DNA from: Polytrichum commune
Taxonomy: Eukaryota; Streptophyta; Polytrichopsida; Polytrichales; Polytrichaceae
Direction: 5' to 3'
NCBI GenBank assembly: GCA_950295325.1
Contig: OX485809.1
Coordinates: forward strand, 20,894,001-20,958,000
DNA: 64,000 nucleotides
Under the pieces are notes generated by a model. It saw only the letters and a program-made list of their open reading frames with translations, did no database searches and was not told where the DNA came from. Of the stretch, positions 509-46,305 are shown piece by piece (the first letter of the stretch is position 1; each line of letters starts with the position of its first letter). Position numbers and translations under genes: made by a program.

Positions 509-1255
509 CTGGCAAAGCATGCACCCAGGGACACACCAATCTCATGTGATCAAAAGTGAAATGGGTTTATTGGCTGCATGAGTATGGACTCTTATGTTCA
601 AACATGTCAAATCAAGGTGTGCAAACACTGTATTTTGACTCTGGAGAACATGCACTCACCAATGTGCCAGAGCAATTTTATCTCAAGTTCAAGACAAAGC
701 CTACTGTGGGATTTAGCTGTACATAGCATGAAATAATGTTGCAAACGGCACAGGTGATAGGTAGAGCTGATATTTAGGTTTGAAAATGTCAAAAGGTGTC
801 CAAAGAATGTGTACTTTGATTCTGATTCACATGCACTCACCAATTTGGAGGAGAAATTTTATCTCAAGCTCATGACAAAGCATATGGAACATAGATATAT
901 ACCCATAGACATACATAGCACGACTTCATGTTGCAAATGGCACAGGCAATGGGTAGAGCTACTTCATAAGTCTAAACATTAAGACCACCCATAGATATAC
1001 ATAACACGATTACATGTTGCCAATGGCACAGGCGATGGATAAAGCTGATTCATATGTTCAAACATGTCAAGTTGAGATGTCCACAGAATGTATACTTTGA
1101 ATCTGTAAAACATGCACTCACGAATTTGCAGAAGCAAATTTATCTCAACTTCAAGACAAGCCTACTATGAAATGTACCCATAGACATACATAGCGTGATT
1201 TCATTTTGCAAATAGCAGTACAGGCGATGGGTAAGTAAAGCTGGAATCAACATAC
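509..1255 (-). repeat. Intron 1 of the MSL-like gene, filled by a ~183-bp tandem repeat
   Basis: About 580-1240 holds three to four diverged copies of one unit. Each contains CATGCACTCACCAAT, then TTTATCTCAAGTTCA, then a block ending CACAGGCGATGGGTAGAGCT. The CATGCACTCAC landmark recurs near 648, 829 and 1109, so one unit is shortened. The array is inside the intron and does not disturb the splice sites. It contains no usable ORF on either strand. Confidence 0.75.
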
Positions 1256-2446
1256 CTCCGCCTCCTCTACTTGCTTCGGTGCTGTATGAGTGGCAAGAAT
1301 AGAAGCCAGGGATCTCGTTTGATGCTTCTTGGACTTAGCAGCAATGGGCAGAAAATATTCCTTGAGATTTTTCACGAGTATTGATCTTGCTGATTGTTTC
1401 GACGTATTTTCCCTGGTTAATTGAACCCTGCCATTAGGGGTGAAAGTCGAAGGACCGAATCTGGAAACTTGAGCCTCGAATGCAGCCAATGTAGGGGGAC
1501 GATCTTGAAGGCGAGACTTTACACGAGTGTAGGTGGCCATAGGAAGCCTTGGCACTGGTCCCAGTTGCTTGGGTCCAGCATTAGGGCTTGCGTTTGGAGT
1601 TATACTTTGCAACAAAGTCTCTACACCAGGGACAGGTACAAGCAAAGTCTTCAGATTAGGTAACAACGATTTCATGTCTGCAAACATTCTCTGTGCTTTT
1701 TCAGTTAGGAAATTCCTCGAAACTGGAACTTCGGTGACAGAGGCAGGTGGTGTAGTAGTAGTAGTAGTAGGGGTTAGGGCTGGGATTGGCTCTAGTTTTT
1801 CATTAGCTATGACCTTCTCCACCAGAGCTTCTTTAAGCGGTATGGCTTCTTTCAGAGCAAGTGCTTCTTCGAGAGGAAGATCTTCTTTCAGATTCAGTGT
1901 TTCTTTTATATCCAACGTATCTTGAAGAGCTACAGCCTCTTTCAGAGCAATTGCATCTTTCAGAGCCTCTTCCTCTTCTAACAGTGTTTTTGTATCATAA
2001 AGGTCGGCTGTGATGGCTGGGGCATCAAGCTCCCCCCAGCTGTCTCTCTTGGCACGAAGATCGTTCCGAATGGTTTCAAGTCTGTATAAATCGATTTTCG
2101 AAGCTCGGACGTTTCCTACACCGAATTCACTATCAATTAACTCCTGTGGAACAACTTCAGCCTTCGGAGCCTCCTCCAGCTGCAAGGATCCGGAATGTCT
2201 CTCTGGCGAAGAAGTCTCTGCAGAAATGGGGGAATTGGGACTCTCCATCGAGAAGCTTCCACTCTTCTCATCCACGTTATGATCATTTGGTGAGTATACC
2301 CAGTGCAATTCCCAGTTCTGGGGGTTCGTTCCCGGACCTAATTCCCTGTCCGAGGGAATCCAATATCGATCCCAATTGGTATACTCAGACATAGCTTCTG
2401 CAGAATTGAAGACCTGTACCAACTGCTCTTGCAAATTACTAGACAT
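1256..2446 (-). CDS. Probable MscS-like (MSL) mechanosensitive channel, exon 1 (cytosolic N-terminus)
   Basis: The open frame runs 397 codons from an ATG at 2446 to GAG at 1258-1256. There it meets GTATGT, a strong plant 5' splice site, and a stop two codons later, so I end the exon at 1256. The product is acidic and probably disordered. Residues about 160-212 are a run of six-residue repeats of type (I/V/L)xLKEx, followed by six Thr and Pro-Pro near residue 227, and a basic C-terminal part. No transmembrane segment is present. Plant MSL proteins have a long, poorly conserved soluble N-terminus ahead of the membrane domain, which fits. The assignment rests on exon 2; alone this exon would be an unknown protein. 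The start is the first ATG and is preceded by a purine-rich GAAGAAGAAG. Confidence 0.7.
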
Positions 2447-13076: not shown

Positions 13077-13475
13077 GACATATAAGAGGTGCACTCGTAT
13101 GCAACAATTCCCTCTTGGTTGTAAGGTAGACATGCCTAACTCCAACACAACAATATTTTGGACACCTATATTTGAGTTGTATGTGGTTAGGTATGGATCC
13201 AAGAACAGATACCAAAAAGTCATGTGTTTAAAGTAGATTGGACTACATGCTCAAAATATGTTAACGATCCTAGGTCTAATAATCAACATGATTGGGGGGA
13301 CCTATATGACCACTTAATGAGCACAAGAATCTTCACTTTGATGACAAATGAGATATTCATATGAGCTCCAAAATTTATCAGGCAAATAGTTATGAGCACG
13401 ATTTGGATTTGCTAGTTATCTCACATTGATTGCGTATTTCATATCGTACAAGAAGCAGGTGTACATATAAAAGTG
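13077..13475 (+). repeat. Dispersed repeat family G, copy 1
   Basis: It shares, in order, AAGGTAGACATGCCTAACTC, CACCTATATTTGAGT, a CATGTGTTTAAA block, GACCACTTAATGAGCACAAG, CTTCACTTTGATGA and a CGTATTTCATAT...AGAAGCAGGTGTA block with 45516-46305. It matches parts of 46890-47120, 55310-55850 and 63655-63805. No termini or coding motifs were found. This copy lacks the hairpin insert seen in the 45-kb copy. Confidence 0.65.
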
Positions 13476-43619: not shown

Positions 43620-43925
43620 TGGGAAGTATATTATATCGTATCTCCAAAGAACGGGGAGAACCACGCGCTAGTTATTACTGATGAACCGGTTTAGTTTGAG
43701 AGATAACCGGTCGAAGTTCAAAGACTTTGGGAAAGTTACCCCTCATTTTAGAGAGAATCTATGGAATATACTTCAAATTGATAAAGAAATGTCAGGAAGA
43801 TCACAACATGTAACTGATCGGACTTGGAAACACGAGGATGTTGGCCTTTTGTGCCCAAAAATCTCCCCAAAGAATTCGGACAATAAGATATTGAGAATTG
43901 ACTTGGGGGTATGGAGCTTATGACC
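43620..43925 (+). repeat. Dispersed repeat family F, copy 2, with an 80-codon ORF
   Basis: Same blocks as 28385-28680. Here one plus frame (43681-43923) stays open and ends near CPKISPKNSDNKILRIDL. In copy 1 the matching peptide has stops but keeps LCPKISP. This suggests a formerly coding element of unknown kind. Confidence 0.55.
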
Positions 43926-45515: not shown

Positions 45516-45897
45516 TAACACACAAGTTTACTAAACATGGAGATGAGTTGTGACCAACACTCCGTTGGAATTAAGGATCAACTCTATTGCACCAAATTTT
45601 ATGTGTGCATCGCCATGAATAAGGTAGACGTGCCTAATTCCAACACAACAATCATATGGACACCTATATTCGAGTGGTGTGTGATTAGGTTGGATCTAAG
45701 AATGAACACCAAAATGACATGTGTTCATAATAAACCGAACTATGTGTTGGAAATACGCTAACCATTCCAGGCTCGATGGTCAACAATGATTGGGTAGGGA
45801 GGAACCTATACGACCACTTAATGAGCACAAGATTCTTCACTTTGATAATGAATAAGATATTCATGTGAACTCCAGAATTCATGAGACAAATGTATTA

Positions 45898-46011
45898 GGT
45901 AACTGTTTTATTGGAACCGGTTATCGGTGCAAAACCGGTTCTGTCAAGGTGGCGAGCCAGCTGGACAGAACCTGTTCTGCACTGATGACCGGTTCCAATA
46001 AAACGATTACC
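45898..46011. repeat. Strong hairpin: 48-bp arms, 18-base loop
   Basis: Arm 45898-45945 (GGTAACTGTTTTATTGGAAC...) and arm 45964-46011 are inverted copies identical at 42 of 48 positions. In a plus-strand transcript three of the six differences are G:U pairs, so only three positions are unpaired. Arms and loop have the size of a plant microRNA or small-RNA precursor, or of a foldback element. Confidence 0.85.
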
Positions 46012-46014
46012 GGA

Positions 46015-46205
46015 CGTAACCGGTTGGCCGCTTTGTTGAGCCGCGCAGGTGACCTAAACAGTGGGTCACATGTCGTCTTCTTCAACATATCCGATTTAGA
46101 TGATCATAACCGGCTGGGATGTCGAGGTTATCGTCTGCAAACCTGTGTGCTCAGAGCCAATCGTGTAGTGCCACCTCGGCGAAACAAAGCGGCCAACCGG
46201 TTACG
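46015..46205. repeat. Second hairpin: exact 23-bp arms, ~145-base loop
   Basis: CGTAACCGGTTGGCCGCTTT at 46015 onward and its exact inverse ending at 46205 pair over 23 bp. A bulged inward extension follows (GCCGCGCAGGTG against GCCGAGGTG). It starts four bases after the first hairpin ends. Confidence 0.8.
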
Positions 46206-46305
46206 ACTACAAACACAATTTGGTTTCGCGAACCATCTCGCGCTACATAGTTGTGTGTGTTTCACATCCTATGAGAAGTGGGTGCCGAGAGAACATGCAT
46301 CCAAC

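Follow-up and report, generated by a model that had tools for sequence, protein, structure and literature searches.

Among described mobile elements, the Cryptons and the DIRS1-like elements come closest to the locus reported here. The 2011 Crypton survey recorded hosts among fungi, oomycetes, a diatom and animals and included nonautonomous derivatives such as CryptonI-1N1_RPro and CryptonA-1N1_OL (PMC3212892). Cryptons go unmentioned in a 2022 review of land-plant transposable elements and in a 2023 plant annotation guide, and among open-licence papers we found no report on Crypton in moss, Physcomitri- or land plants, although an earlier report or Repbase entry may exist. In DIRS1-like elements, internal complementary regions (ICRs) complementary to both ends meet at the circular junction, and integration uses a 3-bp match and leaves no duplication (PMC3266345).

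Here, we analysed a window of 64,000 nucleotides from the moss Polytrichum commune (contig OX485809.1, positions 20,894,001 to 20,958,000), which contains a compact double hairpin. Judged from sequence comparisons, this segment is very probably a short, nonautonomous (MITE-like) deletion derivative of a Crypton-like tyrosine recombinase (YR) DNA transposon. We use "Crypton-like" for likeness by published Crypton features rather than for membership of a named Crypton group.

The double hairpin and its empty site

The features of the element and its surroundings are as follows (window positions, with the strand in parentheses).

45889..45891 (+): left flank and target half-site (AAT); family consensus T (70%), A (88%), Y (98%)
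45892..46204 (+): very probable nonautonomous Crypton-like element, 313 bp, GTATTAGG...AACCGGTTAC; from the alignment of 30 copies and the flanks of 57 insertions
45898..46011 (no strand): hairpin 1, left end plus internal inverted copy; 42/48 in the arms, 18-nt loop
45950..46067 (-): inverted copy of the joined ends (R-L junction), core TAAT changed to GG; alignment score, 69.5
46015..46205 (no strand): hairpin 2, internal inverted copy plus right end; 27/29 in the arms, 23 exact
46086..46087 (+): junction left by the deletion when compared with the parent, where the 5' part meets the final 118 bp; from BLASTN against the C3 and C4 long copies
46205..46205 (+): right-flank G of the target site; G in 52/57 insertions, A in 5/57
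13380..13400 (+): empty paralogous site in the other copy of the host repeat; caggcaaat^agttat versus caaat[element]gactac, ungapped

The original prediction described two strong hairpins set back to back, four bases apart, in a segment of ~314 bp that is missing from another copy of the same host repeat at 13.1 to 13.5 kb. It took the segment to look inserted as a unit and to be possibly a small-RNA locus or an unusual foldback element. Both hairpins were recovered as claimed, with the arms of hairpin 1 at 45898-45945 and 45964-46011 and those of hairpin 2 within 46015-46043 and 46177-46205, where the outer 23 bp pair exactly. The hairpins do abut, but the gap between them is three bases (GGA) rather than four. 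The exact element ends at 46204, as the G at 46205 may be counted as part of the target. Its absence from the other host-repeat copy was borne out by an ungapped alignment across the site (about 70% identity), which places the empty site between 13387 and 13388. The prediction was right both on insertion as a unit and on an unusual foldback element: the segment is mobile, its borders are precise, and many copies share them.

When the region 45880-46220 was folded as RNA, as had been suggested, the free energy was -167.5 kcal/mol (z = -11.4); 100 shuffled sequences averaged -100.0, and none of them folded as well. DNA folding of the same region gave a z of -10.8. Across the copy alignment, the arms of hairpin 1 are perfect or near perfect in some subfamilies. 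The sole long open reading frame (ORF) of the window lies elsewhere (1247-2446, minus strand, 399 amino acids); a Pfam scan of it gave nothing above the cut-off (best match, LED_rpt; E = 0.058).

Dispersed copies and their insertion sites

We searched the host genome (408 Mb in seven large sequences) for the ends of the element. The pattern search revealed a dispersed family of over 200 copies with sharp ends: the left end, GTATTAGGTAATCGTTTTATTGG, had 221 matches when up to two mismatches were allowed, and 414 were obtained for the right end, AAAGCGGCCAACCGGTTAC, when up to one was allowed, while the reversed control pattern had 0 in each case. The right-end count amounts to two per element because hairpin 2 repeats the right end. 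The search for further copies with identical borders, which the original prediction had named as its own test, therefore found many; at least 40 further copies were scored elsewhere in the host genome. Similarity among aligned copies drops sharply at GTATTA and at GGTTAC, and the short copies range from 250 to 411 bp. One copy (L084) has a variant left end, TGCAATAGGTAATCG...CGATTACCTATTGCA, with a longer hairpin and different outer bases. Across 57 copies, the mean difference was 5.5% between copies and 3.5% from the consensus, and 334 of the 595 differences from the consensus were C to T or G to A. The host genome is depleted of CAG/CTG and CG, as would suit a plant that methylates CHG and CG. 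In keeping with a moss host, the genome contains LEAFY-family exons, and the one that was read is closest to PDB 4bhk, the Physcomitrium (moss) protein, with 109.5 bits against 83.6 bits for the Arabidopsis PROTEIN LEAFY, 2vy1.

The flanks of the 57 insertions define the target as WAY^R, with TATG being the commonest site. On the right, the flanking base is G in 91% and A in 9%, and TAYG occurs at 34 of the sites against 0.5 expected. In 56 of the 57 insertions, there was no target site duplication, i.e., no sequence common to both flanks. Paralogous repeat copies without the element represent simple insertion sites, as in cctatat^gaccac (L042) and aatac^gactt (L051), and further clean empty sites were aaaat^gtgtc (L058) and gtgat^gccca (L008). 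At most sites, a 1-bp duplication would look the same as none, since the element starts with G and the target usually has a G at this position; the copies with A in the right flank argue for no duplication.

Long copies and a likely tyrosine recombinase

Long copies were reached by searching the genome with internal sequence from the longest of the short forms. Two loci, C3:58736659-58739865 (3,207 bp) and C4:47809761-47814199 (4,439 bp), keep the right end and extend upstream. Both begin with GTATTAGGTAAC and finish with CCAACCGGTTAC, the same termini as those of the short copies. Their flanks differ, and the two are 96.5% identical over 2.7 kb, with the C3 copy carrying a 1.2-kb internal deletion relative to the C4 copy. 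The first ~158 bp and the last 118 to 119 bp of the long copies cover the window element at 89 to 99%, except at the apex of hairpin 1. In BLASTN, element positions 76-195 correspond to parent positions 39-158, and element positions 196-313 correspond to the parent's last 118 bp. At the level of sequence, this coverage of the ends, about 150 bp on the left and 220 bp on the right, shows derivation from the parent and not mobilisation by its recombinase.

The long copies likely encode a YR; we keep to "likely" because the match is weak. The C-terminal piece matched PF00589 (Phage_integrase) with an E value of 7e-5 and 23.2 bits, below the curated cut-off of 27.1, and a PHROG integrase with an E value of 4.6e-5. 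What we take, from the family pattern, to be tyrosine recombinase boxes I, II and III read RGNTELWKL, KSGR and TGHKNMKSIERY. A search of solved structures with the YR piece matched nothing real, and the Crypton-related model PF12012 (DUF3504) matched nothing in the genome, nor did it match the controls. Among the larger ORFs of the 4,439-bp copy, the Pfam scan found no reverse transcriptase (RT), helicase or Rep domain and no DDE transposase.

No intact autonomous copy was seen: in the best full-length copy, at C4, the reading frame breaks between YR coding pieces one and two, close to an A6 run. The same copy has a 114-bp GT-AG interval before the catalytic piece, which is likely an intron. 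In relatives of the YR (42 to 55% identity), the N- and C-terminal parts persist in adjacent open frames, about 245 to 253 bp apart on C7 and C6. Related genes at C7:30498939-30500100, C7:30531131-30532292, C7:38122488-38123650 and C6:44093463-44094617, with 44 to 55% identity, probably represent further families of like kind; two of them, separated by 32 kb, appear to be near-identical copies.

Long copies with the same ends as the window element thus likely encode a YR and have no detected RT or helicase, and it is on these grounds that we assign the window element to the nonautonomous Crypton-like derivatives. The likeness to Cryptons lies in the YR-type gene found without RT, in the lack of long terminal repeats and target duplications, in the short core matches at the termini and in short derivatives that outnumber the long ones and keep only the ends. 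In contrast to Cryptons, no DUF3504 or GCR1_C match is shown by the moss element, and an inverted copy of its joined ends gives rise to two large hairpins. Such DIRS-like internal complementarity is not known from Cryptons. The host also differs, being a land plant here and fungi, oomycetes, a diatom or animals in the survey (PMC3212892).

Inverted joined ends and alternative readings

In the window element and in the C4 and C3 copies alike, the reverse-complemented R-L junction aligns continuously just inside the left end. The window score exceeds the best of 200 shuffles (19.0), and the C4 and C3 copies score 68.0 and 62.0, with shuffle maxima of 17.5 to 23.5 over the three elements. The only mismatch region of the inverted copy is the altered core. 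This inverted copy of the joined ends accounts for the pair of hairpins: one of its halves pairs with the left end of the element to give hairpin 1, and its other half pairs with the right end to give hairpin 2. The joined-end description restates the abutting hairpins, and its new content is the register across the junction. The R-L junction in head-to-tail form occurs six times in the genome (control, 0), as head-to-tail insertion at TTAC^G would predict. At C2:9663889-9663978, the left-end motif is found in both orientations, 67 bp apart, with a right-end junction directly before it (C2:9663877); by its sequence, this locus is one of tandem or rearranged copies.

We propose that the recombinase of the long copies would excise or copy the element in circular form and that the joined ends of this circle, TTAC|GTATTA, would exchange with a chromosomal TAYG-like core and leave no duplication. 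The left junction would then retain the Y of the target and the right junction the C of the element. Short copies would be mobilised in trans by the same recombinase, and the hairpins may be a by-product, or the recognition architecture, of the internal inverted junction.

On this evidence, the chances seem about even that the moss harbours a Crypton-like lineage that unites coding of the Crypton type with an internal complementary region like that of DIRS elements and spins off a swarm of double-hairpin MITEs. If so, this lineage would be a structural intermediate between two classes of YR elements. The inverted joined-end copy connects the anatomy of DIRS elements with Crypton coding and is relevant to the origin of DIRS-type ends. 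In addition, YR transposition in plants becomes testable, as the family is multicopy and sharply bounded, has a defined target core and encodes a recombinase (likely a YR).

The same complementarity could mark a derivative of a DIRS-type YR retrotransposon, with the inverted joined ends as its ICR and with reverse transcription supplied in trans. As in DIRS1-like elements (PMC3266345), an internal region inversely complementary to both joined ends is present in all three elements, the core is short (3 to 4 bp) and no duplication is left. The 4.4-kb copy, however, has space for a YR gene only, and the RT-RNase H-methyltransferase pol of DIRS1-like elements was not found there; the Dam methyltransferase model matched nothing in the host genome, although it did match in E. 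coli. The moss element has no long inverted terminal repeats, and its complementary region is near the left end rather than the 3' end. The likely intron in the YR gene (the GT-AG interval at C4, and gaps of ~250 bp in the relatives) would be unexpected after reverse transcription of a spliced RNA, and land plants are reported to be without DIRS (PMC9033089). Taken together, these points make a DIRS origin improbable.

Duplication-free insertion, asymmetric ends and hairpins near both termini could also suggest a nonautonomous rolling-circle element (Helitron, Helitron2 or Replitron). Helitron2-type, noncanonical Helitrons have asymmetric inverted repeats with hairpins at both ends and leave no duplication (PMC5148889), and the genome has Helitron Rep genes (34 PF14214 matches, several with long open frames). 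A Helitron/HUH element was in fact favoured first, on the clean insertions, and was dropped since long copies with the same ends likely encode a YR and not a Rep-helicase. The ends are GTATTA...GGTTAC instead of TC...CTRR, the target is WAY^R instead of A^T, and among the 5' ends listed, none was near a listed Rep match. Replitrons (HUH endonuclease, short terminal direct repeats) have a reported duplication of 2 to 8 bp (PMC10741241), compared with none here, and were rejected on this and on the YR coding. We consider a rolling-circle origin highly improbable.

Selection of the hairpin as a small-RNA (microRNA-like) locus would account for the very strong fold, whose stem would be a dicing substrate if transcribed, and for three compensatory double changes that maintain hairpin 1 pairing between lineages, in the long copies. 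Most substitutions in hairpin 1 within the family, however, break or weaken pairing (68 broken and 35 wobble versus 3 compensatory), and the hairpin is borne on dispersed copies with transposon borders. No Rfam family reached its gathering threshold (mir-39, 26.7 bits against a gathering score of 62; E = 0.022). This half of the original prediction hence found no support, as the Rfam match is subthreshold and the inverted joined-end copy explains the hairpins better; selection for a small RNA appears hardly credible, and small interfering RNA may arise incidentally from hairpin copies. The small size, high copy number and strong foldback would suit an ordinary MITE with terminal inverted repeats, or a foldback element, whose target duplication is hidden. 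This reading has next to no likelihood, as the outermost ends are inverted repeats for a few bases only (GTA..GGT) and the duplication is missing from 56 of the 57 insertions and from the empty sites, on which the reading was rejected.

The Crypton-like reading accounts for loci rich in hairpins, which annotation pipelines could mistake for microRNA genes or terminal-inverted-repeat MITEs. The hairpin element often lies beside or within an older dispersed repeat rich in ACCGGTT, which occurs in the window at 28.4, 32.2 and 43.7 kb and includes the AACCGGTT at 43684.
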